Shown here one piece after another: positions 17,231-45,247 of a stretch of DNA of 45,247 nucleotides (its first letter is position 1; the number at the start of each line of letters is the position of its first letter). Made by a program: the position numbers and the translations under genes. Source of the stretch: a virus; the IMG/VR virus record IMGVR_UViG_3300035698_002741, positions 1-45,247 of that record. One strand, written 5' to 3'. The notes beneath the pieces are model-generated. The model searched no databases and was not told the origin of the DNA. It saw only the letters and a list, made by a program, of their open reading frames with translations.

Positions 17231-17389
17231 ATGGCTAAAACTAAGAATAAGAATTGGAAAAACTCAATATATGGGCAGAAAGTTAGGATTAAAGATAAAG
17301 ACCTATTTTGGCTTAAAGAGAACAAATCCAACGCATCAGCAGCAGAGTTTCTTAGTTATGTAATTAAGTTCTATAAGAAAAACAAATGA
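17231..17389 (+). CDS. Small basic protein, possible ribbon-helix-helix regulator (52 aa)
   Basis: It follows an AT-rich leader (ATATTAAATAAAT) and overlaps the methyltransferase ATG by four bases. The N-terminus is basic (MAKTKNKNWKNSIYGQKVRI). The C-terminal part (FWLKENKSNASAAEFLSYVI, then KFYKKNK) has the strand-helix-helix look of Arc/MetJ-type DNA-binding proteins. It may control the structured region upstream or the methyltransferase-nuclease pair downstream. The fold call is tentative. Confidence 0.5.
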   Translation: MAKTKNKNWKNSIYGQKVRIKDKDLFWLKENKSNASAAEFLSYVIKFYKKNK

Positions 17390-18006
17390 AGATATTAAAT
17401 TTATATGCGGGAATAGGTGGCAACAGAAAACTATGGGGTGATAACCACGAGGTTACTGCTGTTGAAAATAATGAAGATATAGCCAAAATATATCAGGACT
17501 TTTTTCCATATGATAAAATGATTGTTAGCGATGCTCATCAGTATTTACTAGAGCATTACAAAGAATTTGATTTTATATGGAGTAGTCCACCTTGCCCAAC
17601 TCATAGTAGAATAAATACACTCCTTGTTAGTGGGCGTGGTATTCAAGCTAAATTTCCAGATATGAAACTTTATGAAGAAATTATATTATTGAAACATTTC
17701 TGTAAATGTAAGTGGGTTATTGAAAATGTTAAATCTTATTATGAACCACTTATAAAACCTCAGTCTGGAGGAAGACATTATTATTGGACTAATTTTAATA
17801 TTGGTGAAATAGAAAAAGATGTAAAAGTTGTGAACAGTAAGGGTCAAAGCTTACAAAGTAAAATGGAAAATAGAGGGATTATAGTAGAGAATTTTCACAA
17901 CTATAAAGGTGATAAAAGAATAATAATAAACAATTGTGTTGACCCTAAAACTGGTAAATATATATTAGATAGAGCTATAAATCAAGAACAAAGACAATTA
18001 TTATGA
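17386..18006 (+). CDS. DNA (cytosine-5) methyltransferase, compact form
   Basis: The enzyme transfers a methyl group from S-adenosylmethionine to cytosine in DNA. Motif I is LNLYAGIGG (residues 4-12). The catalytic motif IV is SSPPCPTHSR with the nucleophile C70. Motif VI is VIENVK (E113). A late motif, GRHYYWTNF, matches motif VIII. At 206 residues it is much shorter than host enzymes (usually over 300) and has little room for a target-recognition domain. It may therefore have relaxed specificity or need a partner. It shares four bases with the following PD-(D/E)XK nuclease gene. Likely roles are protecting phage DNA from restriction or forming a small modification-restriction pair. Confidence 0.82.
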   Translation: MKILNLYAGIGGNRKLWGDNHEVTAVENNEDIAKIYQDFFPYDKMIVSDAHQYLLEHYKEFDFIWSSPPCPTHSRINTLLVSGRGIQAKFPDMKLYEEIILLKHFCKCKWVIENVKSYYEPLIKPQSGGRHYYWTNFNIGEIEKDVKVVNSKGQSLQSKMENRGIIVENFHNYKGDKRIIINNCVDPKTGKYILDRAINQEQRQLL

Positions 18007-21662: not shown

Positions 21663-22061
21663 ATGCGCTATCATGAACACCTGAGTAATATCTCTAAGAA
21701 AGCTCAGATTGGAAGAAATTGTACTCTCCATGCGGGAATACATATCCATGACAAAGTGGCTATTGGAGATAACTGCAAGATACAGGCTCTTGTGTTTATG
21801 CCTAATGGTGTAACCATTGAGAATAATGTATTTATAGGCCCTTGTGTCTGTTTTACAAATGACCCAACTCTTGGAGATGACTTTGAACCAGTACCTACTA
21901 TAGTTATGGAAGGAGCTAAGATAGGTGCTAATAGCACTATTATAGCTGGTATAGTTATTGGTAAGAACGCCATAATTGGTTGCGGATCAGTTGTACTGAC
22001 AGATATACCTGATAATCAGGTATGGGCAGGCAATCCAGCAAGGTTCATTAGGAAATTGTAA
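21663..22061 (+). CDS. Hexapeptide-repeat sugar N-acetyltransferase (WbpD/WlbB-like)
   Basis: A 132-residue left-handed beta-helix acyltransferase. Hexapeptide steps include AQIGRN, VAIGDN, VTIENN, AKIGAN, IVIGKN and AIIGCG. The segment VFIGPCVCFTND matches the active-site loop of WbpD/WlbB enzymes, which acetylate the 3-amino group of UDP-3-amino sugars using acetyl-CoA. The C-terminal WAGNPARFIRKL is the usual end of these enzymes. A strong AAAGGAGGTG box fixes the start. With the aminotransferase and dehydratase downstream it suggests synthesis of a diacetamido-type sugar. Confidence 0.82.
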   Translation: MRYHEHLSNISKKAQIGRNCTLHAGIHIHDKVAIGDNCKIQALVFMPNGVTIENNVFIGPCVCFTNDPTLGDDFEPVPTIVMEGAKIGANSTIIAGIVIGKNAIIGCGSVVLTDIPDNQVWAGNPARFIRKL

Positions 22062-22088
22062 AGCCTTTTCTGACAGGTAAAAGAGTTT

Positions 22089-22112
22089 GGTAGTTCTCTA
22101 ACAAAAACTACC
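22089..22112 (+). promoter_or_regulatory. Leader hairpin
   Basis: GGTAGTT (22089-22095) pairs with AACTACC (22106-22112) over 7 bp with a 10-base loop, 22 bases before the ATG at 22135. There is no T-tract, so it is more likely an RNA stability or processing element than a terminator. Confidence 0.4.
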
Positions 22113-22134
22113 ACTAATTAGGAGATTAAATATT

Positions 22135-22284
22135 ATGGAGAAGAAAGAAGAACAAATATGTCCAGATTGTATGGCTCACTATACTGGTTATCATAAATGT
22201 CCACCTTGGATGAAAGCTATTGTGGCAGCTAAAAGAAGAGAAAAAGGTATTACAATAGTTAAAGATACTAACCCACTTAAATAA
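22135..22284 (+). CDS. Small CxxC...HxxC zinc-binding protein (49 aa)
   Basis: AGGAGA lies ahead of the ATG. The protein has CPDCMAHYTGYHKC (residues 9-22), a probable single zinc site, followed by PPWMKAIVAAKRREKG and a basic tail. Small zinc proteins like this may bind nucleic acid or act as anti-host factors. No family is known to me. Confidence 0.6.
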   Translation: MEKKEEQICPDCMAHYTGYHKCPPWMKAIVAAKRREKGITIVKDTNPLK

Positions 22285-22291
22285 TAAGAGT

Positions 22292-22498
22292 ATGGAGAAG
22301 AAATACATATTGATAAAAGATTTGGGAACAGCAAAAGCTGGAGATGTTTATATTAGAGGATTATATGAACACCCTAACAAAGAGATGAATTATAAAGTTA
22401 ATGATTTGTATTGGCGTAAGGGCAGTGCATTAACTGATTGGAATTTCTTTCATAAAAACACCGTTATAGATACACAATATTTTAAGGTAGTTAAATAA
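22292..22498 (+). CDS. Small hypothetical protein (68 aa)
   Basis: Not recognised. MEKKYILIKDLGTAKAGDVY and WRKGSALTDWNFFHKNTVID suggest a small beta protein of the kind that packs as an SH3-like barrel. It is the last gene before the strong promoter at 22520, so it ends the early-type operon. Confidence 0.55.
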   Translation: MEKKYILIKDLGTAKAGDVYIRGLYEHPNKEMNYKVNDLYWRKGSALTDWNFFHKNTVIDTQYFKVVK

Positions 22499-22519
22499 CC
22501 TTAAACAATAATAGAGTGC

Positions 22520-22547
22520 TTGACAAAACTATAAGAAGGTGTATAAT
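22520..22547 (+). promoter_or_regulatory. Strong sigma70-type promoter of the sugar cluster
   Basis: Perfect TTGACA (22520-22525) and perfect TATAAT (22542-22547), 16 bases apart, one of the strongest-looking promoters in the window. The predicted start is near 22554, leaving a leader of only about a dozen bases before the ATG at 22566. It directs the transketolase and following glycan genes. Confidence 0.85.
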
Positions 22548-22565
22548 AGAATTAACATAAACAAA

Positions 22566-23354
22566 ATGGAGGATTATAAACAAAAATCAAAGAAAGCAAG
22601 ATTGAAGGTATTGAGCTTAATTTACAAAGCCCAGACTTCTCACATTGGATGCAATTTCAGTTGTATAGACTTTATGACCGTTCTATTTGATAAGGTTGAT
22701 TTAGATAAAGACAAAGTAATATTAGGTAAAGGATGGAGTGCTGCGGCGCTCTATTATTTTTTGTATAAAAAAAATAGGTTAAGTTTGAAAGAGCTTAATA
22801 CATATTGCAAGGAGGGGAGCAAGTTCATTGGGCTTGCTGAGCCTATCCATAAAGACATACCTTTCGCTGGCGGATCTATAGGCATGGGGTTATCCGCTGG
22901 CGTTGGGTATGCTTTGTCTAAGAAATTAAAGAAAGAGGATGGTAAAGTCTATGTTATAGAGGGTGATGGAGGCATGCAGTCTGGTATTAACTGGGAAGCT
23001 ATTATGTTTGCTGCTCACCATGAGTTAGACAACCTAGTCCTTTTAATAGACAATAACAATCTACAAGCTATGGGTTCTTTTACAGATATAATGGGTAAAG
23101 AAAACTTTGCACAACAGTTAGACGCCTTTGGTTGGCTAACTTGGCAGGGAGATGGGCATGACTTTGACCAGATTAACGCTACTTTGTTAGCAGTTAATTC
23201 TTTTAAGCCTAAGAAAAAGAAAGCTCCTTATTGTCTGATCTATGACACTATTAAGGGAAAAGGGGTTAGTTTTATGGAGAATAATAACCTTTATCACTAT
23301 AAACAGTTAAATGACTTAGAATACTTACAAGCTAAAAAGGAGATAAATGGGTGA
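22566..23354 (+). CDS. Transketolase, N-terminal (thiamine diphosphate-binding) subunit
   Basis: The protein (262 aa) is the N-terminal half of a split transketolase. The cofactor-binding motif is IEGDGGMQSGINWEA (G133-D134-G135) ending near N163-N165 in LLIDNNNLQAMG. SHIGCNFSCID matches the family's early SHxG segment. Split transketolases in glycan clusters are thought to move a two-carbon ketol unit onto a sugar intermediate. The ATG at 22566 is preferred; an in-frame GTG at 22539 falls inside the promoter. It overlaps the C-terminal subunit gene by 8 bases. Confidence 0.88.
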   Translation: MEDYKQKSKKARLKVLSLIYKAQTSHIGCNFSCIDFMTVLFDKVDLDKDKVILGKGWSAAALYYFLYKKNRLSLKELNTYCKEGSKFIGLAEPIHKDIPFAGGSIGMGLSAGVGYALSKKLKKEDGKVYVIEGDGGMQSGINWEAIMFAAHHELDNLVLLIDNNNLQAMGSFTDIMGKENFAQQLDAFGWLTWQGDGHDFDQINATLLAVNSFKPKKKKAPYCLIYDTIKGKGVSFMENNNLYHYKQLNDLEYLQAKKEING

Positions 23355-23844
23355 AATAACACAAACACAAGATACTAGGCGTATCTTCATAGACACTTTA
23401 ATAGAACTTGCTGAGAAGGATGACAAGATACTCTTAATAGTGCCAGATGTTGGCTTTAATTACATAGAGGAGTTTCAAAAGAAGTTTCCTGATAGGTTTA
23501 TAAATACAGGGATAATGGAGGAGTTTACTATGATATTTGCATCTGCCCTAGCTTTAGATGGTTGGAAGCCTTATGTATATTCAATGATTAACTTTGTAGC
23601 ATTTAGACCATTTGAGATGGTTAGAAATGCTATTTACTTTCACAAGGCTAATGTTAAGCTATTAGGAGTTAAAGGTTCTGCTGCTTATAAAATGCTAGGC
23701 TTTAGCCATAACATGCAACATGAGAATGAAGATGTAGATATATTAAATAGTTATATAAATTGTTCTATTCCAAGAGTTGATGAAGTACGGGATATAATAA
23801 TAAGTAGTTATAAAGATGAAGAAGCTCATTATATCCGTTTATGA
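23347..23844 (+). CDS. Transketolase, pyrimidine-binding subunit only
   Basis: The 165-residue partner of the upstream subunit. It has the Transket_pyr features: LIELAEKDDKILLIVPDVGF, FPDRFINTGIMEEFTMIFAS with the cofactor-activating Glu in the MEE segment, and RPFEMVRNAIY. It stops at AHYIRL, precisely where the pyrimidine domain ends. The usual C-terminal domain of about 120 residues is therefore missing. The C domain does not bind the cofactor in known enzymes, so activity is possible. The ATG of the next gene overlaps its stop. Confidence 0.85.
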   Translation: MGEITQTQDTRRIFIDTLIELAEKDDKILLIVPDVGFNYIEEFQKKFPDRFINTGIMEEFTMIFASALALDGWKPYVYSMINFVAFRPFEMVRNAIYFHKANVKLLGVKGSAAYKMLGFSHNMQHENEDVDILNSYINCSIPRVDEVRDIIISSYKDEEAHYIRL

Positions 23845-24671
23845 AGAACAAGAGAATATTAATAACTGGAGGAGCTGGATCAATAGGAAGTGAGCTTGCT
23901 AGACAATTATCACCTAATAATAAGATATTCCTTTTAGATATAAATGAAACTGATGTATATCAAGTAAGAGAACAGATAAGAAATGAAGTACATGACCATT
24001 GGATTTATAGTAGAACTGGTGATGTAAGAAACAAAGAAACATTAAGAGACCTTTTTGAGGACTTTAAGCCACAAGTAGTATTCCATGCCGCAGCTCTTAA
24101 AAATGTAACTCCTGGTGAAGAATATCCACAAGAGACAATAGATACTAATGTTCAGGGTACAGCCAATATGATAGCAGAAGCTAAGAGATGGGAGTGTTTA
24201 GAGAAGTTTGTGTTCATTTCAACTGATAAAGTAGTAAATGCTCATTGTATAATGGGTATGACTAAGAAACTAGCAGAAGGATTAGTTACTAAAGCAGGAC
24301 ATGAGTTTGTAGCAGTAAGATTTGGTAATGTATTAGGTAGTTCTGGTTCAGTTCTTGAGATATGGGAAAGACAAGTAAAGAACGGTGATCCGATTACTAT
24401 TACAGATGAAAAGATGGAACGTTATATGATGACTATACCAGAGGCTTGTGAACTTGTCATAGAAGCTAGTAAGGGTAAAAATGGAGAGATTTATATATTA
24501 GATATGGGTAAGAAGGTAAATATACTAGAACTAGCTATGAAATATCATCCTTATCATCCACAAGAAATTATAGGAATTAGGGATGGTGAAACATTATCAG
24601 AGGAGCTTATGACAGAGGAAGAAGAAAAAAGAGCTATTAAACAAGGAAGATTTTATATATTAAAACCATGA
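23841..24671 (+). CDS. NAD(P)-dependent sugar dehydratase/epimerase, CapD/PseB-like
   Basis: A Rossmann-fold extended SDR. ILITGGAGSIGSELARQL (residues 6-23) is the cofactor site. VVFHAAALKNV and the block FVFISTDKVVNAHCIMGMTK match the Polysacc_synt_2 (CapD, FlaA1, PseB) family, where the usual Tyr of YxxxK is replaced by Met. AVRFGNVLGSSGSV is also typical. These enzymes convert UDP-GlcNAc to 4-keto-6-deoxy or epimerised sugars. At 276 residues it is shorter than PseB, mainly at the C-terminus. It begins the sugar route that the aminotransferase would continue. Confidence 0.85.
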   Translation: MKNKRILITGGAGSIGSELARQLSPNNKIFLLDINETDVYQVREQIRNEVHDHWIYSRTGDVRNKETLRDLFEDFKPQVVFHAAALKNVTPGEEYPQETIDTNVQGTANMIAEAKRWECLEKFVFISTDKVVNAHCIMGMTKKLAEGLVTKAGHEFVAVRFGNVLGSSGSVLEIWERQVKNGDPITITDEKMERYMMTIPEACELVIEASKGKNGEIYILDMGKKVNILELAMKYHPYHPQEIIGIRDGETLSEELMTEEEEKRAIKQGRFYILKP

Positions 24672-25729
24672 AAGTAAAGTATTTAGACTTTGGAAAAGTA
24701 TGGGATAATTACCCAGTAGCAAAAGAGGCTCATAATGCTACTCTTAGTGGTGGAAGAATGATATTACAGAAAGAGTTAGAAGAGTTTGAAGAAAAGTTAG
24801 CTAGATTTGTAGGTACTAAATATGCTGTAGGTGTTAATTCAGGCACAGATGCACTGTTTTTAACCTTAAAAGCTATGGGAATAGGTAAGGGTGATGAGGT
24901 AATCACTGTTTCTAATACCTTTGTAGCTACTATTCAGGTTATAGAACAATGTGGAGCAACACCAATACTTGTAGATGTAGAAGAAAGAACTGGACTTATG
25001 GACTGGTACAGTGTTCAAATAGCCGTTACTAAGAAGACTAAGTTGATAATACCTGTTCAATTAGCAGGAGATGAAACAAATACAGGAATGGTAGAATTTT
25101 GTGGTGTACCAATATTAGAAGATGCTTGTCAAGCAATAGGAGCTACAAGTCCTAATCTTGGTTGTTATTCATTCTATCCAGCTAAGTTATTAGGTGGTAT
25201 AGGTGATGGAGGAGCTGTTGTATGTAATAATAAACATATAAGAGATGAAATAGTTAAATTAAGAAATCACTATTTAATAGGAAAAGTAGATTATGATGAG
25301 AATAATGTTTACAAGTTTGGTTATAATTCTAGGTTGGATAATGCTTATGCAGCTTTTCTTTCAGTTAAATTAGATACACTACCAGTTGATATATTAGAAA
25401 GAAAGAAAGTAGCAGAGAGATATGATATGGCTTTTAGGAACTATCCTATAAGATTGCCTGTTAAGAGAGAAGTATATCAAGATTATATTATAGGAGTTGA
25501 GAAAAGAGATGAACTACATGAATTCTTAAAAGAGAAAGGAATTGAAACTTTAGGTGCAGATCAACATCCACCGCATTTATTTAATGGACTTGGACTAGAC
25601 CACTTCAACTTACCAATAACAGAAAGAATATTTAAAGAATCATTAAGGATACCTTGTAATCAGTTTCTAACTGATAAAGAGGTAGAATATATAATTAGTA
25701 ATATAAAGGAGTTTTATGCAATGCCATAA
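24668..25729 (+). CDS. DegT/DnrJ/EryC1-type sugar aminotransferase
   Basis: A pyridoxal-phosphate enzyme (353 aa) that adds an amino group to a keto-sugar nucleotide. Family marks: LSGGRMILQKELEEFEEKLA at the N-terminus, YAVGVNSGTDALFLTLKAMG for cofactor-binding, EDACQAIGA, and SFYPAKLLGGIGDGGAV, whose Lys holds the cofactor. FGYNSRLDNAYAAFLSVKL is the usual later block. Length is slightly under the family average of about 370. It overlaps the genes on both sides. The product would be an amino sugar ready for acetylation by the enzyme at 21663. Confidence 0.88.
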   Translation: MKVKYLDFGKVWDNYPVAKEAHNATLSGGRMILQKELEEFEEKLARFVGTKYAVGVNSGTDALFLTLKAMGIGKGDEVITVSNTFVATIQVIEQCGATPILVDVEERTGLMDWYSVQIAVTKKTKLIIPVQLAGDETNTGMVEFCGVPILEDACQAIGATSPNLGCYSFYPAKLLGGIGDGGAVVCNNKHIRDEIVKLRNHYLIGKVDYDENNVYKFGYNSRLDNAYAAFLSVKLDTLPVDILERKKVAERYDMAFRNYPIRLPVKREVYQDYIIGVEKRDELHEFLKEKGIETLGADQHPPHLFNGLGLDHFNLPITERIFKESLRIPCNQFLTDKEVEYIISNIKEFYAMP

Positions 25730-26771
25730 ATGTGTAATGGATGATACAGCATCAGAGTTTAGATTAGAAAAATATGGTCAAAATAAAGATGGTTGTAACT
25801 TCTGTAGCAGAGCAAAGGAATCACTAGAAGACATACAAACTGAGAATCTTAATATGCAATCCGTGCTTGAGCAGATTAGGAAAGATGGTAAAGATAAGGA
25901 ATATGATGTCCTTATTGGACTATCAGGTGGACTTGATTCATCTACTACTTTTGATTGGGCTGTTAAAAACGGGCTAAAGATTTTAGCTTTTACTTTAGAT
26001 AATGATTACAACACAGACCAAGCTAACCATAATATAATGGCACTTGTTGATAATAACTGTTATTTTAAGAAGATAGAAGTGGACCATGATACTTATACTA
26101 AGCTACAAGAATCCTTTTTCATGGCAGGAGTTAAGAATTGTGAGATACCAACAGACCATATTCTAATGGCTGTAACTTATATGCTAGCTAAAGAGAATGA
26201 TATTAAATGGATATTATCGGGTGGTAACTCGGTATCAGAGAGTATAATGCCTGCGTCTTGGAGTTATAATGCTAGAGATTTAACCCATATCAAAGATATT
26301 TATAAGAAATTCAATAAAGAAGACTTAGATGGAATACCATTGTGTTCTATTTGGAAGTGGAATGAATACAAACATACTGATGGAATCAAGATATTCTATC
26401 CATTAGACTATATTGATTATAACTTAAAAGCAGCTAAAGAAATGCTTAAAGATAAATATGGTTGGCAAGACTATGGAGATAAGCATGAAGAATCTTTATT
26501 TACTAAGTGGTTTCAGAATGTATATTTATATTATAAGTTTGGTATAGATAAGCGTAAAGCTCACTATTCATCTTTGATAGTAGCTGGTCAAATGACAAGA
26601 GATGAAGCACTAGAAAAATTAAGAAAAGACCCAGTTGCACCAGAGTTTCCTATTAAAGAGTTAAGTGAGAGTGATATTATGAGTTATCATAAACATGCAC
26701 ATGAAGAATATGCTACTGAATCTTGGTATGAAGATATAGCTGAGATGATAAAAGGTAAACATGAAGATTAG
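25716..26771 (+). CDS. N-acetyl sugar amidotransferase (WbpG/PseA-like)
   Basis: The protein (351 aa) has four zinc-type cysteines at residues 3, 6, 27 and 30 (QCHKCVMDD and CNFCSRA) and an ATP pyrophosphatase loop SGGLDSS at 70-76. This architecture defines the family that makes acetamidino sugars in O-antigen, flagellin and legionaminic or pseudaminic acid routes. Other members need a glutaminase subunit (HisH-like) and a HisF-like partner; neither is in the window, so they would have to come from the host or lie outside it. The start overlaps the aminotransferase by 14 bases. Confidence 0.83.
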   Translation: MQCHKCVMDDTASEFRLEKYGQNKDGCNFCSRAKESLEDIQTENLNMQSVLEQIRKDGKDKEYDVLIGLSGGLDSSTTFDWAVKNGLKILAFTLDNDYNTDQANHNIMALVDNNCYFKKIEVDHDTYTKLQESFFMAGVKNCEIPTDHILMAVTYMLAKENDIKWILSGGNSVSESIMPASWSYNARDLTHIKDIYKKFNKEDLDGIPLCSIWKWNEYKHTDGIKIFYPLDYIDYNLKAAKEMLKDKYGWQDYGDKHEESLFTKWFQNVYLYYKFGIDKRKAHYSSLIVAGQMTRDEALEKLRKDPVAPEFPIKELSESDIMSYHKHAHEEYATESWYEDIAEMIKGKHED

Positions 26772-27579
26772 AGTAGCACCAAGTTTGGGCGGTGGCTTTG
26801 AAAGGAGCTTTGATGAGGCTTGGGGTTTAGAAACATATAACTCAGAAACAGATAAAGAAGAGACTTGTGTATTTGCTGGTTGTTATGGTTTACCTGACTT
26901 TATGGCAGTTAGACAGCATAAAGGTAAGAAGTATCTATTTTGGGCAGGATCAGATATTAGACACCTACAAGGTGGGTATTGGATTGATGATAAAGGTTAT
27001 ATAAGATTACCATCTAATGGAATAGCTAAGTATCTTGATACAGCTTGTGAGAACTGGTGTGAAAATGAAGCTGAAAGGAAAGCTCTTGAATGGATGGGAA
27101 TACACGCTAAGGTTTGTCCGTCTTTTTTAGGAGATGTTAATAAGTTTGAAGTTACTTATAAACATAGTAAGAGACCTAAATTATATTCAAGCGTATCAGG
27201 TGATGAGTTTGTAACTTACGGGTGGTATAGAATACTTGAATTGGCTAAGAAATATGATGATGTAGAGTTTCATTTATATGGTAATACAGACCATTTTGAA
27301 GGTGCTGAGAATGTAATAGTACACGGTAGAGTGCCTATTGAGCAGATGAATGAAGAGATAAAAGATATGCAAGGTTGTATAAGACTACTTCCGCTTGAAG
27401 GATTTAGTGAGATAGTAGCCAAAAGTCTTTTAATGGGTCAATATCCTGTATCAGAAATAGCATATCCGTACTGTTTAGCACTAGATGAGATAGGTAAGAT
27501 TGCTCTATTAGAAGAACCAAATACAGGTAGAGACTATTATATTAAAGAATTGAACCAATTTCCATGGGTTATGAAATAA
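26761..27579 (+). CDS. Glycosyltransferase, GT-B (family 4-like)
   Basis: A 272-residue protein. The C-terminal half has the retaining glycosyltransferase pattern: a strand FHLYGN, ENVIVHGRVPIEQMNEEIKD, and the donor-binding EGFSEIVAKSLLMGQYPV with the conserved Glu. The N-terminal half (RVAPSLGGGFERSFDEAWG) would bind the acceptor. It is shorter than most family members (about 350). It likely adds the modified sugar made by the preceding genes to a glycan. It overlaps neighbours on both sides. Confidence 0.72.
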   Translation: MKIRVAPSLGGGFERSFDEAWGLETYNSETDKEETCVFAGCYGLPDFMAVRQHKGKKYLFWAGSDIRHLQGGYWIDDKGYIRLPSNGIAKYLDTACENWCENEAERKALEWMGIHAKVCPSFLGDVNKFEVTYKHSKRPKLYSSVSGDEFVTYGWYRILELAKKYDDVEFHLYGNTDHFEGAENVIVHGRVPIEQMNEEIKDMQGCIRLLPLEGFSEIVAKSLLMGQYPVSEIAYPYCLALDEIGKIALLEEPNTGRDYYIKELNQFPWVMK

Positions 27580-28076
27580 TAGATGAGATGTTTACAGGTG
27601 AGAACCCAAAGAGTGTATTTGAAGTTGGATGTTCTGCTTGTGGACTAATGGAAGACTTTTATAAAAATGGTGTTAAGGTGGGCGGTTTAGATATACAGGG
27701 AGATGATATAAAGATGAAAGGTGAGTTTTTTGTTCAGGATGCCTCTGATAAGTGGCCTCTAAAAGATAATAGTTATGATATAGTTTTCAGCGTAGGAACA
27801 TTGATCTACATAGATAAACCTTTAAAAGCCTTAAAAGAGATGTTAAGGGTAGGTAAGAAAGTAATACTTGCTGAAAGAAATGGGCATGATAACTTTGAAG
27901 AGCATCAGCTTATAAGACAGAAGCTAGATAATGATGATAATGTAATAGGTGAAGAGCTTTTGCCAACAGTATATAGACAATACCTACATGATTATGAAAG
28001 ATTGTTTAAGAAGTTAAAAGTAAAATATTTAATAAGAGAACATGATGGTAAACATATAATAAAAACCTATGATTGA
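27564..28076 (+). CDS. SAM-dependent methyltransferase, copy 1
   Basis: A class I methyltransferase of 170 residues. Motif I is SVFEVGCSACG, followed by GGLDIQGD. Later SYDIVFSVGTLIYIDKPLKA and MLRVGKKVILAERNG are motif IV-VI type. It is a tandem relative of the protein at 28458: both carry GENPKS-FEVGC and SYDIVF-VGTL. In glycan clusters such enzymes methylate hydroxyl groups of sugars, a common cap. The substrate is not determined. No cysteine-rich or helix-turn-helix part is present. Confidence 0.75.
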   Translation: MGYEIIDEMFTGENPKSVFEVGCSACGLMEDFYKNGVKVGGLDIQGDDIKMKGEFFVQDASDKWPLKDNSYDIVFSVGTLIYIDKPLKALKEMLRVGKKVILAERNGHDNFEEHQLIRQKLDNDDNVIGEELLPTVYRQYLHDYERLFKKLKVKYLIREHDGKHIIKTYD

Positions 28077-28461
28077 AGAATATAAGCACATTACAATAAA
28101 AGATAACAAGTTAGAATTTGGTAATGGTTGGGGTGATGGATTAGAAGGACTTATGAATATGCGTCATGAAGATATTATTGGAGCAACCGAAAGTATGCTT
28201 ATTGATGGATATTTAGTTTATATATTGAATGATGATTTTGTTGAACAACAACAGTTATATGTATCTATTGATAAAAGGCAGAAAGGTTATGCCACTAAGT
28301 TGTTTAAGGCTTTTGAGAAAAAAGTAAAGGAAACTAATTGTAAAAAGATAATCATTAAAGTTGTATTTAATGAAGTAGATGTAAATCCGTTTCAAGACTT
28401 TTTAATAAAATTAAAATATAAGGAAGATAAGCAGAATTGTATTTGGTATAAAAACTTATGA
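28069..28461 (+). CDS. GNAT-family acetyltransferase
   Basis: The acetyl-CoA loop is seen as QQLYVSIDKRQKGYATKLFK (residues 64-83), where RQKGYA matches the R/Q-x-x-G-x-G/A pattern, followed by a helix AFEKKVKETNCKK and a strand IIIKVVFNE. The N-terminal half is more divergent. It may acetylate an amino sugar or a small molecule; it lies between two related methyltransferases. It overlaps both by a few bases. The assignment is moderate because only motif A is clear. Confidence 0.65.
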   Translation: MIEEYKHITIKDNKLEFGNGWGDGLEGLMNMRHEDIIGATESMLIDGYLVYILNDDFVEQQQLYVSIDKRQKGYATKLFKAFEKKVKETNCKKIIIKVVFNEVDVNPFQDFLIKLKYKEDKQNCIWYKNL

Positions 28462-28958
28462 AGACAGTATTTAAAGGTGAAAATCCGAAGAGTATATTTG
28501 AAGTAGGCTGTATGAATAGTTGGTTTGCTAAACAATATTCTATTGATAATGATGTAATAGTAGGTGGAATAGATTATGAAAAAGAATACATTGATGGATC
28601 TAAAAAGGAGTTTCCACAATTCAAAGATAACTTTATATTATGGGATATAACTAAGAAGGATTGGCCTGTAAAGAGTAATAGCTATGATATTGTATTTACT
28701 GTTGGAACATTGTTGCTAATACCAAATCCTTATGATGTTATGAAAGAAATGATAAGAATAGCAAAAGATAAGTTAATTATACTAGAATATCAAGATGATA
28801 ATGAGACAGATTATGGTTCACTAGGGAACACAAGCCAACCAAAAGATAAAAATAAGAGAGTATATAGGGATTATAGAAAGGTTTTTGATAAGATGGGGTT
28901 AAAATATAAAAGAATAACTGATTATAGTGGTAAAACATTATTTAAAATACAATTATGA
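28458..28958 (+). CDS. SAM-dependent methyltransferase, copy 2
   Basis: A 166-residue class I methyltransferase, paralogue of 27564-28076. GENPKSIFEVGCMNSWFA is motif I, and SYDIVFTVGTLLLIPNPYDV is the following strand-helix. RVYRDYRKVFDKMGLKYKRI matches the C-terminal part of copy 1 (VYRQYLHDYERLFKKLKVKY). The two have diverged strongly, so duplication is old or the pair was acquired together. They may methylate neighbouring positions of the same glycan. Confidence 0.75.
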   Translation: MKTVFKGENPKSIFEVGCMNSWFAKQYSIDNDVIVGGIDYEKEYIDGSKKEFPQFKDNFILWDITKKDWPVKSNSYDIVFTVGTLLLIPNPYDVMKEMIRIAKDKLIILEYQDDNETDYGSLGNTSQPKDKNKRVYRDYRKVFDKMGLKYKRITDYSGKTLFKIQL

Positions 28959-29896
28959 AAAAGATTAAGCATTATTTTTATGTGCCTTTTGTCGGGCTAG
29001 GAAACTATAATGGATTTAGGGGTAATAGATGGTTTAAGAATAGAATAAATATATTCAAGCAGTTTGTAGTGCCATCATTACAGGTTCAAACCAATCAACA
29101 TTTTACGCTTTGGGTTTCATTTACTGAGAAACAGAAGCATGACATGTTAGTAGATGAGTTGGATTTATTCTTAACAGAAAAGGGAATAAAGCATGTATTT
29201 ACTTATAGTGGTATATGTTTCTATGATGATAAAATACCGCTAGGTGAGGCTAAGATAAGATTGATGGAAAACCTACATAATACAATGGGTGAATTATTTG
29301 AAGATATAGGAGATGTAGATGAGGTTTTAATGACTATTCAACCAAGTGATGATTGTTTCTATGAAGGTGCTGTTGAAGAAATACAGAGGGAGTTAAAAGG
29401 GGAATTAGAAGCAGTGGGGTATAAAAATGGATATATAATGAATTATCTTACTTTGGATATTTCAGATTATGATTGTAATACCAATCCACCATTTTATACT
29501 ATTAAGTTTGATAAAGATATATTTATAGACCCAATGGAGCATTGTGAATATACATCTTTAAAGCGTGCTGTACCTGGTTATGATATTGGAACTCCATTAC
29601 CTAGTCATGAGTGGGTTAAAGATTGTTTAAACTATAAACAAATAGATAAAAGGGGATTTTTAGTAGGAACTCATACAGAGAATATAAGTACATACTATGA
29701 CCATCCATTTAAGGGAGATCAAGTTGATTATAGTATAGGGTTTGATTTTGGGTTAGCTACATGTTTACCACTTAAATTAAAAGTTAGTTGGCGTAAAAAG
29801 ATGTTAGGTAAGCTATCATTTGATACACAAAAGAAGATAAGATACATAACTGGAGAAGTAATTTGGCAAAAAATATATGGGTTTCTTAGGAATTAG
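28955..29896 (+). CDS. Glycosyltransferase, putative rhamnosyltransferase type
   Basis: A 313-residue protein with the opening pattern of the putative rhamnosyltransferase family: HYFYVPFVGL, then a basic stretch, FKQFVVPSLQVQTNQHFTLW and VSFTEKQKHDM. The nucleotide-sugar and metal-binding acidic cluster is probably IQPSDDCFYEGAV near residue 125. The C-terminus is basic and could sit at the membrane. It likely adds a deoxysugar or similar unit to the glycan. It overlaps the next gene by 20 bases. The exact sugar is unknown. Confidence 0.65.
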   Translation: MKKIKHYFYVPFVGLGNYNGFRGNRWFKNRINIFKQFVVPSLQVQTNQHFTLWVSFTEKQKHDMLVDELDLFLTEKGIKHVFTYSGICFYDDKIPLGEAKIRLMENLHNTMGELFEDIGDVDEVLMTIQPSDDCFYEGAVEEIQRELKGELEAVGYKNGYIMNYLTLDISDYDCNTNPPFYTIKFDKDIFIDPMEHCEYTSLKRAVPGYDIGTPLPSHEWVKDCLNYKQIDKRGFLVGTHTENISTYYDHPFKGDQVDYSIGFDFGLATCLPLKLKVSWRKKMLGKLSFDTQKKIRYITGEVIWQKIYGFLRN

Positions 29897-30512
29897 AACA
29901 ACTAAATCACAAAGTAAATACTGGGAAGATAGAACTATTAACTGGGAAGAGAAGTATTTTAGTACATGGGAAGATCCACATAGATACTTTATATCAGCAT
30001 TTTTAAGTAGTTTTAATTGGGGTTCATTGATTGAAGTAGGTGTTGGTGGTGGTGCTAATTTAGCAAATATAGTTAAAATGATACCCAATAGAATGGTTGG
30101 TGGTATAGATATTAACCCAGATGCTATTGAATTTTGTAGTAAGAAGTTCAAAGGTGGTGTTTGGAAAACAAGTTCAGCTGATAATATCATGATGTCAGAC
30201 AAATCTAGTGATGTAATGTTATCAGATATGACTTATATCTATGTAGGACCATTAAAGATAGATAGATACATTAAAGAGCTAAGGCGTGTAACTAGAAACA
30301 ATGTAGTTCTATGTGAACTGTATGAAAAGAATCCGATAAAGAGAATATGGCTATACTTAACAGAAGGTTATTTCTTTCATAACTGGCCTAAACTGTTGAG
30401 AAAACATGGCTTTTATGATATAATGGTAGTACCTTTCCCTAAAGGAGCATGGGAAAATCTACAATCTAAGTATTGTTATTTAATTAAGGCACAAGTGCCA
30501 AGAAGATATTAA
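29877..30512 (+). CDS. SAM-dependent methyltransferase, copy 3 (distinct type)
   Basis: A 211-residue class I methyltransferase. LIEVGVGGGANLANIVKMI is motif I, then GGIDINPDAIEFCSKKF, and DVMLSDMTYIYVGPLKIDRY. RRVTRNNVVLCELYEK is the next strand. The N-terminal 45 residues (KSQSKYWEDRTINWEEKYFS) form an extra helical cap seen in sugar O-methyltransferases. It is not a close copy of the two shorter methyltransferases. With three methylating enzymes in the cluster, the glycan product would be heavily capped. Confidence 0.75.
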   Translation: MGFLGIRTTKSQSKYWEDRTINWEEKYFSTWEDPHRYFISAFLSSFNWGSLIEVGVGGGANLANIVKMIPNRMVGGIDINPDAIEFCSKKFKGGVWKTSSADNIMMSDKSSDVMLSDMTYIYVGPLKIDRYIKELRRVTRNNVVLCELYEKNPIKRIWLYLTEGYFFHNWPKLLRKHGFYDIMVVPFPKGAWENLQSKYCYLIKAQVPRRY

Positions 30513-30516
30513 AATT

Positions 30517-30939
30517 ATGTTTACAAGATTTAAAAAAGAGTACAAATTCTTTAAGAATAAGAAAAAGAGTATTCAGAAGATGATTTGGGATAATGAGTTT
30601 AAGCGTTATAAGATGAAAGAGAATAGAGAAGAGATGCGTCAGGACTATGACAATAAGAAAGCTCATGTTCAAATGTTAATAGATAAGTATAAACTTGAAA
30701 AGAAGAAAGGTAAGTTAAATAAAGATGAATTAGCCCGTATTGATGATGATAAGGTAAGAGCAGAGGCAGATATAGAGATATTAAAGGATTATATGTCAGC
30801 ATCAGATAGAGGTATTTATGGTTGTGAGCCAGGTAAAGACTTTCCTGAAGGCTTTAATGGTCAAGAACAGCTAATAGAAGGTTTACATGAGATAATAGAG
30901 ATGCTTACTGACTATATGAAACAATTATTAAATAAATAA
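30517..30939 (+). CDS. Basic coiled-coil hypothetical protein (140 aa)
   Basis: Not recognised. It begins MFTRFKKEYKFFKNKKKSIQ, continues as a long charged helix (KENREEMRQDYDNKKAHVQM, then LEKKKGKLNKDELARIDDDK), and has a less charged C-terminus. No membrane part. It sits inside the sugar cluster between a methyltransferase and an epimerase, but nothing ties it to glycan chemistry; it may be structural. Confidence 0.6.
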   Translation: MFTRFKKEYKFFKNKKKSIQKMIWDNEFKRYKMKENREEMRQDYDNKKAHVQMLIDKYKLEKKKGKLNKDELARIDDDKVRAEADIEILKDYMSASDRGIYGCEPGKDFPEGFNGQEQLIEGLHEIIEMLTDYMKQLLNK

Positions 30940-30943
30940 ATAT

Positions 30944-31864
30944 ATGACTGAAGATAAAAAAGTAGAAGAACAACCTAAACAAAGACCACCAATAGTCTTA
31001 ATTACTGGACATGCTGGCTTTGTAGGTAGAGAAACAACTAAGTATTTTATAGAACAAGGCTGGGGAGTGCTAGGATATGACCTTATGAGTGGCAATGACT
31101 TCAGGAATATAGAGGACTTTAGAGAGTTCTGTAAGACACATAAACCAGATAGAATATTACATTTAGGTGCAATAGCTAGATTTGCTGAGGCTGATAAAGA
31201 TCCGCAGTTAGCATTTGAGACTAATGCAATAGGTACAAGTAATGTAGCAATGGTAGCTAGAGAGTTTAACATACCTATGGTTTATAGTTCTACTGGGTCA
31301 GTTTACATGCCTATTAAGGGTGAACCACCAATTACAGAGGAGTTTCCTGTTAGTGGTAACTCTAATTATGCTTGTTCTAAGCTATTAGGTGAGTTTTATG
31401 TTCAAAAGTATGCTGGTACATGGATTATACTTAGATATTCACACTTATATGGTAAGGATAAGCGTTATCATGGTTTAATTGGCGGGTTCTTGAATAAGAT
31501 AGAGACATTTATGAAACCAGAACTACATGGTGGGAAACAATCAAATGACTTTATGTATGTAAAGGATGTAGCAAGAGCTAATTTTAAGGCTATAACTTCA
31601 ACTTCTGATAATTGGAGACAGATATATAACATAGGAACAGGTGAAGAATTAACTGCTGAAGCTGCTGGTAAGATAATATGTGATAAAGCGGGTTATAAAG
31701 GAGAGATAGAGATAACAGAACCAAGAGGTGTAGATCCTAAGAGATTTGTATTTGATACATTCAAAGCTAAGAATATGATAGACTTTGATTCAGAGTATAA
31801 TTTTGAAGATGGTTTAGCTGATATGTTTAAACTAATAAAGGAAGAAGATGTCAAAACTAAGTAA
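30944..31864 (+). CDS. NAD-dependent sugar-nucleotide epimerase/dehydratase
   Basis: An extended SDR of 306 residues. The cofactor loop is ITGHAGFVGRE (near residues 20-30), the later helix end LHLGAIARFAEAD, the Thr/Ser of VYSSTGSVY, and the catalytic pair in NYACSKLLGE (Y...K). ILRYSHLYG and QIYNIGTGEE also fit UDP-glucose or GDP-mannose epimerase relatives. The first 16 residues are a charged extension. It is different from the CapD-like enzyme at 23841, which has lost the Tyr. It likely makes a second activated sugar for the glycan. Confidence 0.85.
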   Translation: MTEDKKVEEQPKQRPPIVLITGHAGFVGRETTKYFIEQGWGVLGYDLMSGNDFRNIEDFREFCKTHKPDRILHLGAIARFAEADKDPQLAFETNAIGTSNVAMVAREFNIPMVYSSTGSVYMPIKGEPPITEEFPVSGNSNYACSKLLGEFYVQKYAGTWIILRYSHLYGKDKRYHGLIGGFLNKIETFMKPELHGGKQSNDFMYVKDVARANFKAITSTSDNWRQIYNIGTGEELTAEAAGKIICDKAGYKGEIEITEPRGVDPKRFVFDTFKAKNMIDFDSEYNFEDGLADMFKLIKEEDVKTK

Positions 31865-32248: not shown

Positions 32249-32665
32249 ATGCCTGAAAGAGATGAAAAGAATAGATTTGTAAAAGGACACAGTGGAGGAC
32301 CTGGAAGACCAAAGGGTTCTATTTCTTTGATTGCCATATTAAAAGAGAAACTAGCACTCATTGACCCAGAAACAAATAAGACTGGTGGTCAATTACTAAT
32401 GGAGAAAGTATTGAAAGATGCTTATACAAAGGATGGTCAATCAAGAAAGCTAGTTATGCAATATGCTGAAGGTATGCCTCAACAACAAATAGAAACAACA
32501 CATTTATTACCACAACCATTAATTAAATTAGATGAAGTACACGCAGACAACAGCAACAAAGAAGATAGCAGGGATGCACAAGAGAATAAGAGCCTTACAA
32601 GGGGGAACAGCAGCGTCAAAGACAATCTCGGCGCTGATCTACTTGATAGCAAAAGCACAGACTGA
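32249..32665 (+). CDS. Probable terminase small subunit
   Basis: A 138-residue protein lying directly before the large terminase. Its N-terminus, RFVKGHSGGPGRPKGSISLI, is the short basic GRPKGS-type DNA-binding lead of many small phage terminase proteins. A helix-turn-helix-like region follows (AILKEKLALI, then GGQLLMEKVLKDAYTKDGQS). The last 45 residues overlap, in another frame, the first 134 bases of the large subunit gene, including its ATP-binding loop. Small subunits recognise the packaging site. The role is inferred from position and the basic motif. Confidence 0.65.
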   Translation: MPERDEKNRFVKGHSGGPGRPKGSISLIAILKEKLALIDPETNKTGGQLLMEKVLKDAYTKDGQSRKLVMQYAEGMPQQQIETTHLLPQPLIKLDEVHADNSNKEDSRDAQENKSLTRGNSSVKDNLGADLLDSKSTD

Positions 32666-33722
32666 TACTGAAAAGACATTAACATCAGTAGTATCAGAGT
32701 CATTTCCTCACCTTAAAAGGGGTGCTATAAGGGATTTCTTAAATATAATGGAAGGACATGGCTATTATAGTGAAGGTAGATGGAATAGAACTGATTGTGT
32801 GTACACATTTGAGACTGGTAGTAAGATAGAGTTCTTTAGTGCTGACCAACCTAGTAAGGTTAGAGGCCCTAGAAGAGAGCGTTTATTCATTAATGAGTGT
32901 AATAACATACCTTTTGAGACATTTGAGCAGTTAGAAGTCCGTACTAGGGAGTTTATAATACTTGACTGGAATCCAACACATGAGTTCTGGTTCTATGAAT
33001 ATGTTAAAGATAGACCTGATTGTGAGTATTTAACCCTTACTTACCTAGATAATGAGGCTTTAGACAAGAGTATAGTTAAATCAATAGAATCCCGTAAAGA
33101 TAGGAAACAATGGTGGAAAGTATATGGCCTTGGTCTATTAGGTGAGGTAGAAGGTAAGATATTTAAAGATTGGGAGATAATAGATGAAGTGCCTAGACAC
33201 GCTAGATTAGAGAGATATGGGGTAGATTTCGGCTATTCTAATGATCCTACAGCTATAGTAGCTATATATTATTATCAAGGTGGGTATGTATTAGATGAAA
33301 TATCCTTTAAAACAGGTATGTTAAACTCACATATAGCAGATATAATTGAGGCACAAGAGACTGGAAGCGTATTAGTAGTAGCAGATAGTGCTGAACCTAA
33401 GAGTATAGAGGAGATAAAACAGCATGGAATCAACATAGTAGGGTGTGAAAAGGGCAGAGATTCAGTATCACATGGTATCCAAATGGTACAAGATCAACAA
33501 ATAAGCGTTACTAAGAGGTCTTTAAACCTTATTAAGAGTTATAGAAACTATATGTGGGATACAGACAGAGATGGTAATTTCATCAATGTACCATGTCATG
33601 AGTTCTCAGATATTATGGATGCTACACGCTATGGGGTAGTATCACTGGTTAAGAAGCCTAAGTTTAAGACACCTGAAGCAACTAAACCATTACCTAATTA
33701 TTATGATGAAGTTGGACTATAG
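32532..33722 (+). CDS. terL: Terminase large subunit
   Basis: The DNA-packaging motor and nuclease (396 aa). The Walker A loop is GGTAASKT at residues 24-31 and Walker B is RLFINECNNI near 115-124. The nuclease domain has YGVDFGYSNDPTA near 226-238, VADSAEPKSIEEI, and HEFSDIMDATRYG, which supply the metal-binding acids of an RNase H-like fold. It resembles the PBSX/terminase_3 type. The start at 32532 lies inside the small-subunit gene. All motifs look intact. It cuts unit genomes from concatemers and pumps DNA through the portal at 34758. Confidence 0.92.
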   Translation: MKYTQTTATKKIAGMHKRIRALQGGTAASKTISALIYLIAKAQTDTEKTLTSVVSESFPHLKRGAIRDFLNIMEGHGYYSEGRWNRTDCVYTFETGSKIEFFSADQPSKVRGPRRERLFINECNNIPFETFEQLEVRTREFIILDWNPTHEFWFYEYVKDRPDCEYLTLTYLDNEALDKSIVKSIESRKDRKQWWKVYGLGLLGEVEGKIFKDWEIIDEVPRHARLERYGVDFGYSNDPTAIVAIYYYQGGYVLDEISFKTGMLNSHIADIIEAQETGSVLVVADSAEPKSIEEIKQHGINIVGCEKGRDSVSHGIQMVQDQQISVTKRSLNLIKSYRNYMWDTDRDGNFINVPCHEFSDIMDATRYGVVSLVKKPKFKTPEATKPLPNYYDEVGL

Positions 33723-34611: not shown

Positions 34612-34688
34612 TACGGGGTAGAGCAGTCTGGTAGCTCGGTGGTCTCATAATCCGCAGGTCATGGGTTCAAATCCCATCCCCGTTTCCA
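34612..34688 (+). tRNA. tRNA with anticodon CAU (Met-type or Ile2-type)
   Basis: All arms can be drawn: acceptor TACGGGG with CCCCGTT, D arm GAGC...GCTC, anticodon stem GTGGT with TCCGC around loop CTCATAA (anticodon CAT at 34646-34648), and T arm ATGGG TTCAAAT CCCAT. CCA is encoded at 34686-34688. Two pairs are imperfect: position 1-72 (T-T) and the last anticodon-stem pair (T-T). A mismatch at 1-72 occurs in initiator tRNAs, but the three G-C pairs that mark initiators are absent. It may be an elongator Met tRNA or, after lysidine modification, an isoleucine AUA reader. The AT-rich genome uses many ATA codons, which would favour the latter. Confidence 0.85.
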
Positions 34689-38975: not shown

Positions 38976-39959
38976 ATGGATATAAATAAATTACAAAAAT
39001 TAGACAAAGACTTAGACAAGGCTATTGATATAGATAGAGAGCAAAAGAAGTCTAAAGAAGATAAGTCTTTCTTGTCGGGTCTTTTAGATACAGCATTTAC
39101 AGCTCTTATAAATGTATTTAAAAAAGAGAACAAAGACACAAGAGATAGTTTGAGTGCTAAATTAGATGCTCAAACATTGTCCTTTGATAAAAGTATAAAA
39201 TCGGTAGCAGATAAGAAAATAGAGGTTAATGTACCTGAAATTAAGATACCAAAGCCAGACCCAATAGAGGTTAAATTGCCTGTTATAAGCGTTCCAAAAA
39301 CAAACATACAGTTTGATACCAAACCACTAGAAAAAGCTGTCAGAGAGGGTGTTTCGGGCATTAAACCACCTATTATAAAGATACCTAAGCCTGAAGTAAC
39401 AGTTAATCTACCAGAAATGGACTTAGTGTGGCCTAAAGAGACCATGCAAGTTGATGGAATGGTCGGAATAAAGGGTGTTGGGTTGGATTCACCCATGCCA
39501 GTCCAACTCAGAGACTCTAAAGGTAAGCCTGTTAAGTTTCAATTTGATGGTGGTGCTAAGATAGGCCATAAATCTGTCAATTTAGAGAATAAAGATGGAG
39601 TTAAGATAAACCCTGCTACAGAAGATAAACAAGATGATATAGTAACTGCTGTAAATAATGTTAGTGGCTTACAAAGAAGTACAGATATGTATGGTGGTGG
39701 TAAAAATGCTGTTGGAAGTGGTGCTGAGGTAGAAGTTACTATTACTGGAACACCAGAATCAATTATTATAAAAGCAGATCCAGCTAATACAGGATATATA
39801 TATGTTGGTAAGACAGGTGTTACAAATGTAGGTGCTAATGCCCTAACATATTTAAATAGTGGAGATGAAATAATACTAGACTATGATGACACAACTAATG
39901 CCATTTATGTAATAGCTTCGGCTGCTGCACAGAATGTGTGGTGGGGGGCATTATTATGA
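38976..39959 (+). CDS. Virion appendage protein, paralogue of 36504
   Basis: A 327-residue protein. Residues 1-75 are a lysine/aspartate-rich helix (MDINKLQKLDKDLDKAIDID). Residues 75-145 are an extended rod of the type KIEVNVPEIKIPKPDPIEVK and IIKIPKPEVTVNLPEMDL, as in 36504. Then comes IKGVGLDSPMPVQLRDSKGK, again shared. The C-terminal 110 residues are a Gly/Thr-rich beta domain (VEVTITGTPESIIIKADPAN). It overlaps the long fibre gene by four bases. It may link the fibre to the tail or head. A non-enzymatic virion role is likely. Confidence 0.55.
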   Translation: MDINKLQKLDKDLDKAIDIDREQKKSKEDKSFLSGLLDTAFTALINVFKKENKDTRDSLSAKLDAQTLSFDKSIKSVADKKIEVNVPEIKIPKPDPIEVKLPVISVPKTNIQFDTKPLEKAVREGVSGIKPPIIKIPKPEVTVNLPEMDLVWPKETMQVDGMVGIKGVGLDSPMPVQLRDSKGKPVKFQFDGGAKIGHKSVNLENKDGVKINPATEDKQDDIVTAVNNVSGLQRSTDMYGGGKNAVGSGAEVEVTITGTPESIIIKADPANTGYIYVGKTGVTNVGANALTYLNSGDEIILDYDDTTNAIYVIASAAAQNVWWGALL

Positions 39960-44223: not shown

Positions 44224-44256
44224 TTACAAAATAATTATCAGAGCGATAAAATAAAT

Positions 44257-44296
44257 AATGGGTATAACTTTTGCGGTTATACCCATTTTCTGCTTT
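44257..44296 (+). terminator. Strong bidirectional terminator
   Basis: AATGGGTATAAC (44257-44268) and GTTATACCCATT (44276-44287) form a perfect 12-bp stem with loop TTTTGCG. A T-rich run follows, TTCTGCTTTTTT. An A-rich side on the left allows it to stop transcription from the right as well. It separates the amidase from the opposing HNH gene. Confidence 0.85.
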
Positions 44297-44319
44297 TTTA
44301 TTAACAGTTTATACCCAGC

Positions 44320-44691
44320 CTATATATTATAAATATGTTTGTTTTTTTCTCTCAATATTTTTATTCTTTTAGCTATAACCATAGGGGGTGTATTGTTTAT
44401 TTTTAGCAACCAATATAGGTATTGTTGTTTAACCCGATCATCGTGATATAGATTGATTAGTGCCATTATTCTATCCTCTATAAAGACAAGCTCCTCTTTA
44501 CTAAAAAGCCCATAATCAAGCAATTTATGGTGGTTAGGACAAAGAGTAACCACATTTAATATCCCGTGTCCGCCACCTAATTTTTGAGGAACTATATGAC
44601 AATCTTCTGTGTATCTAGTATAGCCACAGATTATACACTTAGACATTTTAAGATTTTCTTCATAATCTTTTTTACTCCTATAAATAGACAT
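44320..44691 (-). CDS. HNH endonuclease, minus strand
   Basis: The only clear leftward gene (123 aa). Zinc/HNH residues are C19 and C22 in KCIICGYT, then DCHIVP with H32, GGGHGILNVVTLCPNHHKLL with N46, C51 and H54-H55. The core matches a small HNH fold. The N-terminal 15 residues and C-terminal half are basic, perhaps DNA-binding. A second start at M16 (MSKCIICG) would remove the basic lead. It is placed alone against the flow of all other genes, with terminator to the left and an AT-rich region to the right. It looks like a separate insertion (moron or homing gene). Confidence 0.8.
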   Translation of the reverse strand: MSIYRSKKDYEENLKMSKCIICGYTRYTEDCHIVPQKLGGGHGILNVVTLCPNHHKLLDYGLFSKEELVFIEDRIMALINLYHDDRVKQQYLYWLLKINNTPPMVIAKRIKILREKNKHIYNI

Positions 44692-44910
44692 AGTTTTTAG
44701 TTAATTTATTAAAAGTTATCCCCAATTAAATATTAGCACAGAAATATAAATAAAGCTAGTAGTCGTGCCAAAAAATAACTAAAATGGGGATAAGTTTGTT
44801 ATTATTATAACTATTATAATATATTAATTATTAGATATATTATATTATATATATCTAATAGATATAGATACAGAAAACCCATAGAAATTTGGGCGAAAAA
44901 AATTAAATCG

Positions 44911-44946
44911 ACATAAAGCTCAAAATGGCTCTATGTTGTTTTTTTA
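44911..44946 (+). terminator. Terminator-like hairpin in the gene-free region
   Basis: ACATA-A-AGC (44911-44919) pairs with GCT-C-TATGT (44928-44936), leaving one A/C mismatch and an 8-base loop, followed by TGTTTTTTTATT. The gene-free position suggests that a short RNA is made from this region and stops here. Confidence 0.5.
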
Positions 44947-45171
44947 TTATCAAGCTATATAGTTTTACTACTTTGCTACTCAAAATTAATCTTGGGGGTG
45001 TTTTGTGAGAAATAACCTATACTGGTAGTCGAACTGGGGTGGCATATTATAGCCTTTATATTTAATATTTGGGTGATGATTAACAATTCAACTGGGTATA
45101 ACCTAAAAAAATCTTTATGACAAATTCCAATAAATCAAAAACAAGTGTTGTAAAGCCACTAAAATAGCTTG

Positions 45172-45200
45172 TAGACAGCTTACTGTATTTAGAATATAAT
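45172..45200 (+). promoter_or_regulatory. Promoter reading out of the window
   Basis: TAGACA (45172-45177), a 17-base spacer, and a perfect TATAAT (45195-45200). It is placed about 40 bases before the ATG at 45242, with the AT-rich leader ACAAACAAAAAGTAT. It probably begins the early or replication gene block beyond the edge. Confidence 0.7.
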
Positions 45201-45241
45201 ATAGTCAAGAGGTTAATTAAAACCTCACAAACAAAAAGTAT

Positions 45242-45247
45242 ATGAAA
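45242..45247 (+). CDS. First codons of a gene cut by the right edge
   Basis: ATGAAA is the last six bases. It lies at the normal distance downstream of the 45172 promoter and has the same A-rich leader as other genes in the window, so it likely begins a gene. Nothing more can be said. Confidence 0.4.

Follow-up and report, generated by a model that had tools for sequence, protein, structure and literature searches.

The uncultured virus contig IMGVR_UViG_3300035698_002741 (45,247 bases, classed as linear, with no terminal repeat; analyzed at its full length and called the window here) carries a sugar module at positions 21663–31864, between ninG and the terminase genes. The module makes up about one fifth of the genome and belongs to a family of uncultured tailed phages. 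A run of overlapping open reading frames (ORFs) extends from 22566 to 30512, on the + strand throughout, and epi comes next. An original prediction, made from the DNA letters, had named here an acetyltransferase, a split transketolase, a dehydratase, an aminotransferase, an amidotransferase, two glycosyltransferases, three methyltransferases, a GNAT protein and an epimerase. Every one of these ORFs is present at the predicted position, on the + strand, and each family is backed by a profile or a fold (Table 1). Homology searches and structure prediction uphold the enzyme identities, with catalytic motifs intact wherever examined; PHROGs families exist for few of the module proteins.

We defined the phage lineage by capsid and portal, not by terminase. 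A capsid scan of viral contigs recovered uncultured phages of roughly 40 kb that share homologous genes for capsid, portal and tail; in these the module again stands after replication-type genes and ahead of TerS-TerL-portal. The set grew through profile scans with the amidotransferase, gtA and portal, whereas single-sequence scans with wbuX (viral and genome collections) and epi gave almost nothing. All relatives compared are fragments from uncultured phages, and enzyme specificities are taken from remote homologues. gtA is present in 17 of the 19 portal loci that have at least 7 kb upstream; the two exceptions are a rearranged fragment (L265) and L301 (record G430), a module-free member that offers a natural comparison for the need for the module. 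The lineage core consists of tktN, tktP, capD, degT, wbuX, gtB, gtA, mt3, g30517 and LbH. In L002, an independent contig from a near relative, the epi-TerS-TerL-portal junction is retained at 77, 47, 75 and 73% identity, respectively. LbH homologues adjoin TerL or portal in many relatives, and several have epi, LbH or both placed between TerL and portal, within the packaging block. Sequence comparison confirms that the module is real and no artefact, and we read it as a lineage-defining phage pathway. The sugar genes of environmental phages are usually recorded singly, under the label of auxiliary metabolic genes. In this lineage, which has no cultured members, almost every phage has a pathway of about ten such genes.

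Table 1. Features of the sugar module and its flank in the window.
Feature	Position	Strand	Basis
LbH hexapeptide N-acetyltransferase, WlbB/WbpD- or QdtC-like	21663–22061	+	Pfam Hexapep; PDB ranking
Small ORF, 68 residues	22292–22498	+	No Pfam or PHROG match; not conserved
Sigma-70-type promoter match, TTGACA-16-TATAAT	22520–22547	+	Perfect 12/12
tktN, split transketolase, diphosphate-binding half	22566–23354	+	Transketolase_N 1.4e-24; best PDB 6yak
tktP, split transketolase, pyrimidine-binding half only	23347–23844	+	Transket_pyr 3.5e-11; alignment
capD, soluble UDP-GlcNAc 4,6-dehydratase-like	23841–24671	+	Polysacc_synt_2 1e-83; PDB WlaL/PglF 1e-45
degT, pyridoxal phosphate-dependent sugar aminotransferase	24668–25729	+	DegT 9.6e-73; PDB ranking
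wbuX, N-acetyl sugar amidotransferase (NASAT/WbpG/PseA family)	25716–26771	+	TIGR03573 3.6e-56; PDB 8wex
gtB, GT-B fold glycosyltransferase, GT4-like	26761–27579	+	AlphaFold and Foldseek
mt1, S-adenosylmethionine (SAM) methyltransferase	27564–28076	+	Methyltransf_11
GNAT acetyltransferase	28069–28461	+	Acetyltransf_1 7.4e-5
mt2, SAM methyltransferase	28458–28958	+	Profile match; mt1 paralogue
gtA, GT-A fold glycosyltransferase	28955–29896	+	PF11316 4.5e-5 (weak); alignments; fold
mt3, SAM methyltransferase	29877–30512	+	Methyltransf_25; Pse_Me-ase weak
g30517, conserved coiled protein	30517–30939	+	Travels with glycosyltransferases
epi, extended SDR epimerase/dehydratase	30944–31864	+	Epimerase 8e-39; PDB UDP-glucose 4-epimerase 4zrm
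TerS and TerL, flanking	32249–33722	+	Module abuts packaging genes

The overlapping run had been predicted to stand behind a perfect promoter at 22520. The run itself and the exact match both hold, with about 0.08 perfect matches expected by chance per window, but the promoter was not found conserved when sought before tktN in relatives, and as a functional element it is only suggestive. As its −10 box overlaps the listed GTG start at 22539, tktN probably begins at the ATG at 22566. Shine-Dalgarno sites show no enrichment in the window and little in relatives. The 68-residue ORF probably lies outside the pathway.

Among sugar-making enzymes, LbH best matches amino-sugar N-acyltransferases of known structure (a WxcM-like protein, 1.9e-26; WlbB, 3mqg, 2.6e-21; QdtC, 7e-15). 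CapD scores 281 bits against the Polysacc_synt_2 cut-off of 20, and its closest solved structure is the PglF/WlaL dehydratase; it has a Met-variant active site (STDK...MGMTK) and the nucleotide-binding motif GGAGSIG (GxxGxxG). The C3-aminotransferases QdtB and WbpE rank ahead of PseC for DegT, and similarity of module proteins to PseB, PseC and the Pse-methylase scores under the curated cut-offs. The nearest solved relative of WbuX is a Legionella N-acetyl sugar amidotransferase (8wex). Its PP-loop SGGxDS (SGGLDS in the window) and its CXXC...CXXC cysteines (C3, C6, C27 and C30) are invariant across eight phages, with a slightly different spacing ahead of C27 in the window; these two motifs are hallmarks of the N-acetyl sugar amidotransferase family (PMC10607449). 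WbuX reaches 191 bits against TIGR03573, for which the subfamily cut-off is 203. Taken together, the nearest relatives of CapD, DegT, LbH and WbuX point to a 6-deoxy sugar whose C3 amino group would be acetylated and then amidinated.

The transketolase has its diphosphate-binding (PP) and pyrimidine-binding (Pyr) domains on two genes, with the thiamine diphosphate-binding region and the catalytic Glu kept. Alignments show the conserved motifs of TktN, whose best structural match, 6yak, is a split-chain transketolase, and an invariant catalytic Glu58 in TktP. TktP is a 165-residue Pyr domain only, and the C-terminal transketolase domain is absent. For the biosynthesis of miharamycin and amipurimycin, split transketolases have been suggested to extend keto sugars by a C2 unit (PMC12247030). 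As in those systems, the two-gene transketolase lies beside a keto-sugar-making enzyme, and its function is a proposal in both; the phage Pyr half differs in having no C-terminal domain. Our best guess, by analogy, is that the phage pair also adds a C2 branch to a keto sugar.

The transfer enzymes were recognized mainly by fold. GtB has no Pfam or NCBIfam match, but its AlphaFold model (predicted local distance difference test, pLDDT, 93.3) resembles GT-B enzymes of GT4 type in Foldseek searches (TarM, SenB, SdgB and GtfA, E down to 3.5e-9). The GtA model (pLDDT 91.1) matches GT-A enzymes with a best E of 3e-7 and TM-scores of just 0.35–0.43; its SDD and DDK motifs are the same in all 24 sequences compared, and it ends in a basic C-terminal helix. 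The methyltransferases Mt1 and Mt2 are paralogous (mutual match 8e-22). mt1, GNAT and mt2 are seen only in the window phage, its relatives having a glutaminase or gfo there, and mt3 is found in nearly all lineage records. The nearest solved relatives and the two glycosyltransferase folds thus lend good support to the original proposal that these enzymes make, transfer and cap an unusual amino sugar.

The pathway shows affinity to known systems. Escherichia coli WbuX acts for L-FucNAm, and the Wbp B/E/D/G enzymes make acetamidino sugars in Pseudomonas aeruginosa. WbpE, WbpD/WlbB and WbpG homologues are present in the window, and some relatives add gfo, a WbpB-like oxidoreductase with WbpB as best PDB match. 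Unlike the Wbp route, the phage-encoded pathway begins at a CapD 4,6-dehydratase, not a 6-dehydrogenase, includes the split transketolase and, where it has a glutaminase, has a CTP-synthase-like one in place of HisH/HisF. It resembles the pseudaminic acid and bacillosamine (Pse/Pgl) pathways in that its dehydratase is nearest PglF/WlaL, but its aminotransferase is closer to C3 enzymes and no NeuB-like synthase was seen.

Several parts of the module vary. The class I glutaminase (Pfam GATase, closest to CTP synthase) stands beside wbuX in most relatives. It is missing from the window, L201 and L208; its absence from G012 is uncertain, as none was called at first and a later profile scan marked one. 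The prediction of a complete route therefore holds for most of the pathway but not for this partner of the amidotransferase. In the 17 records covering the region, gfo and epi exclude each other (8 with gfo only, 8 with epi only, none with both and one with neither; Fisher 4e-4, without correction for phylogeny). Since the window has epi and its closest relative, G003, has gfo, a switch has occurred between near relatives. HNH endonucleases related to the window ORF at 7587–8141 are inserted at several module positions in relatives: beside duplicated wbuX or gtA pieces in L203 and L245, and joined in frame to tktP in G003, where the resulting 336-residue transketolase ORF was rejected as a full-length C-terminal half. 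These endonucleases may provide a mechanism for exchanging sugar genes. The enzymes of interest include the transketolase pair lacking a C-terminal domain, the amidotransferase with its CTP-synthase-like glutaminase, and the helix-less sugar-phosphate transferases described below.

Two histories can be distinguished within the operon by comparing gene distances with portal distances (Spearman Mantel). gtB (0.79), gtA (0.79), g30517 (0.75), wbuX (0.67) and mt3 (0.65) follow the portal (each 0.001 by permutation), for which the capsid gives 0.82, and capD is intermediate at 0.45. No such relation is seen for tktN (−0.01), tktP (−0.05) or degT (0.06), and little for LbH (0.17) or TerL (0.16). We read these values as two units: one for transfer, probably inherited together with the virion genes, and one for sugar making, which appears to have been exchanged. 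This split inheritance makes a dedicated, switchable glycan testable, whether on the particle or on the host envelope. The close relatives of TerL (32532–33722) are mostly otherwise unrelated phages, and the terminase is a poor marker of lineage; terminase relatives, which mostly share TerL alone, were dropped as a lineage set. Matches for tktN and capD labelled as Listeria, Staphylococcus or faecal phage are unannotated contigs and were not counted as phage evidence. Searches of cultured phages with portal, gtA and the amidotransferase gave no match.

We favor, at about even probability, a pathway of soluble enzymes that makes a 6-deoxy amino sugar with an acetamidino group and possibly a carbon branch, and most likely puts it on a virion protein. 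The reaction order, sugar structure, acceptor and timing are those we infer. CapD would form a UDP-4-keto-6-deoxy-HexNAc, which the aminotransferase and LbH would equip with an acetylated amino group, probably on C3. A keto-sugar intermediate may receive a two-carbon branch from the split transketolase, and WbuX would turn the acetamido into an acetamidino group. The GT-B and GT-A enzymes would then transfer sugars into a short glycan, methylated and, in the window, possibly also capped by the GNAT enzyme. Modification of the virion protein would take place in the cytoplasm at a late stage of expression, "late" being suggested by gene position. The virion is favored as acceptor because the enzymes are soluble (no consistent membrane segments in the core enzymes), the genes lie in the packaging block and belong to the core, and the transfer unit co-diverges with portal and capsid. 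In the mycobacteriophages Che8, Corndog and Myrna, phage glycosyltransferases glycosylate capsid and tail (tail-tube) proteins (PMC12363180). Those reports concern glycosyltransferases, whereas the present phages conserve, alongside such enzymes, a dedicated pathway for the sugar nucleotide.

Several observations weigh against the putative virion acceptor. In the window the glutaminase is missing, and GtA may bind membranes through its basic C-terminal helix. L301 has no module upstream of TerL: helicase-type replication genes directly precede TerL, and there is no gtA anywhere in the 26-kb record. Co-divergence may mean vertical inheritance only, which could produce the correlation, yet the correlation does not extend to TerL or the sugar-making genes. 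Finally, a PF02397 sugar-phosphate transferase occurs in seven module-bearing virus records (G010, G015, G017, G421, G424, G425 and G428). In several it directly precedes tktN; the family points to an envelope glycan, and the G015 protein has its membrane helix.

The main alternative, possible but more doubtful than a virion acceptor, is modification of the host envelope. The sugar would be placed on a lipid-linked or surface glycan, with the help of a host flippase and ligase, and would block other phages or keep progeny from rebinding debris. Besides the PF02397 genes, this agrees with the enzyme classes, typical of O-antigen and capsule clusters, and with sugar-making genes that are swapped as serotype genes are. 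PF02397 enzymes normally load undecaprenyl phosphate and are anchored by an N-terminal membrane helix. However, this helix is missing from five of the six proteins read (from G010, G015, G017, L209, L242 and L212); the helix-less forms keep the catalytic DE motif and have no upstream in-frame extension that could supply the helix. An initiating lipid-linked transferase is absent from most relatives, and the window contains none, PF02397 included. The window's module shows no flippase, polymerase, ligase or GtrAB-like membrane protein, and likewise has neither the GtrA flippase nor the lipid-linked glycosyltransferase of prophage GtrABC or O-antigen conversion systems. The genes are core and in the packaging block, and not in an accessory or lysogeny module. 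Studies of groundwater phages interpret nucleotide-sugar genes as envelope-directed (PMC12911398; PMC10980836). Groundwater Patescibacteria phages carry single galE, rml or gmd O-antigen nucleotide-sugar genes, called auxiliary (PMC12911398). The present phages are likewise uncultured, with sugar-nucleotide genes and related contigs binned in groundwater genomes, but instead of single genes they conserve a core of about ten.

A more elaborate form of the virion reading, which we consider improbable, involves the helix-less PF02397 proteins. The particles would be coated with a carbon-branched acetamidino sugar; in one sub-lineage the helix-less transferase would pass the first sugar phosphate to a soluble acceptor, a virion protein, in place of undecaprenyl phosphate, and HNH-aided exchange of sugar genes would alter the coat in a serotype-like manner.

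Beside the host surface and the virion, the original prediction had offered DNA hypermodification. In this third reading the glycan would sit on modified bases of the phage genome as a defense against restriction. Phages are known to glycosylate DNA, and the window has a small C5-methyltransferase gene (17386–18006). However, such a gene occurs in just 2 of 20 related records and thymidylate-synthase/hydroxymethylase (ThyA-type) homologues in none of the 20, in a search whose positive control worked; Tet/JBP homologues were also found in 0 of 20, though no positive control rang. DNA is therefore a very unlikely target. The product of 17386–18006, a C5-cytosine methyltransferase of 206 residues, covers the first third of the Pfam model.

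Host-derived cargo or an assembly artefact with no phage role has a probability close to negligible: the closest known enzymes are bacterial, and such genes are often labelled auxiliary metabolic genes, but the recurrence of the module at one genomic position in many independent assemblies rules out the host-chromosome artefact raised with the original prediction, catalytic residues are conserved among phages of widely differing sequence, and, in 259 genomes sampled from three candidate host phyla, the only gtB genes found lay on two binned phage contigs (the archaeal genomes were scanned with no positive control).

Phage contigs encoding portal homologues had been binned in Elusimicrobia, archaeal and groundwater bacterial metagenome-assembled genomes; these three names disagree, and host assignment by binning failed. 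A scan of 192 genomes from the phylum of the groundwater bacterium returned only the already known contig. gtB looks phage-specific and not recently borrowed from such a host.

Elsewhere in the window, the right-hand terminal stretch of about 1 kb (44224–45247) has no plausible + strand gene and a low GC content (28%). A tRNA gene with a CAT anticodon (34612–34688) lies between terminase and portal. The truncated left-end ORF (42–683) resembles the C-terminal part of a fibre-like ORF (39938–41815), and the contig therefore probably breaks within a second fibre gene.

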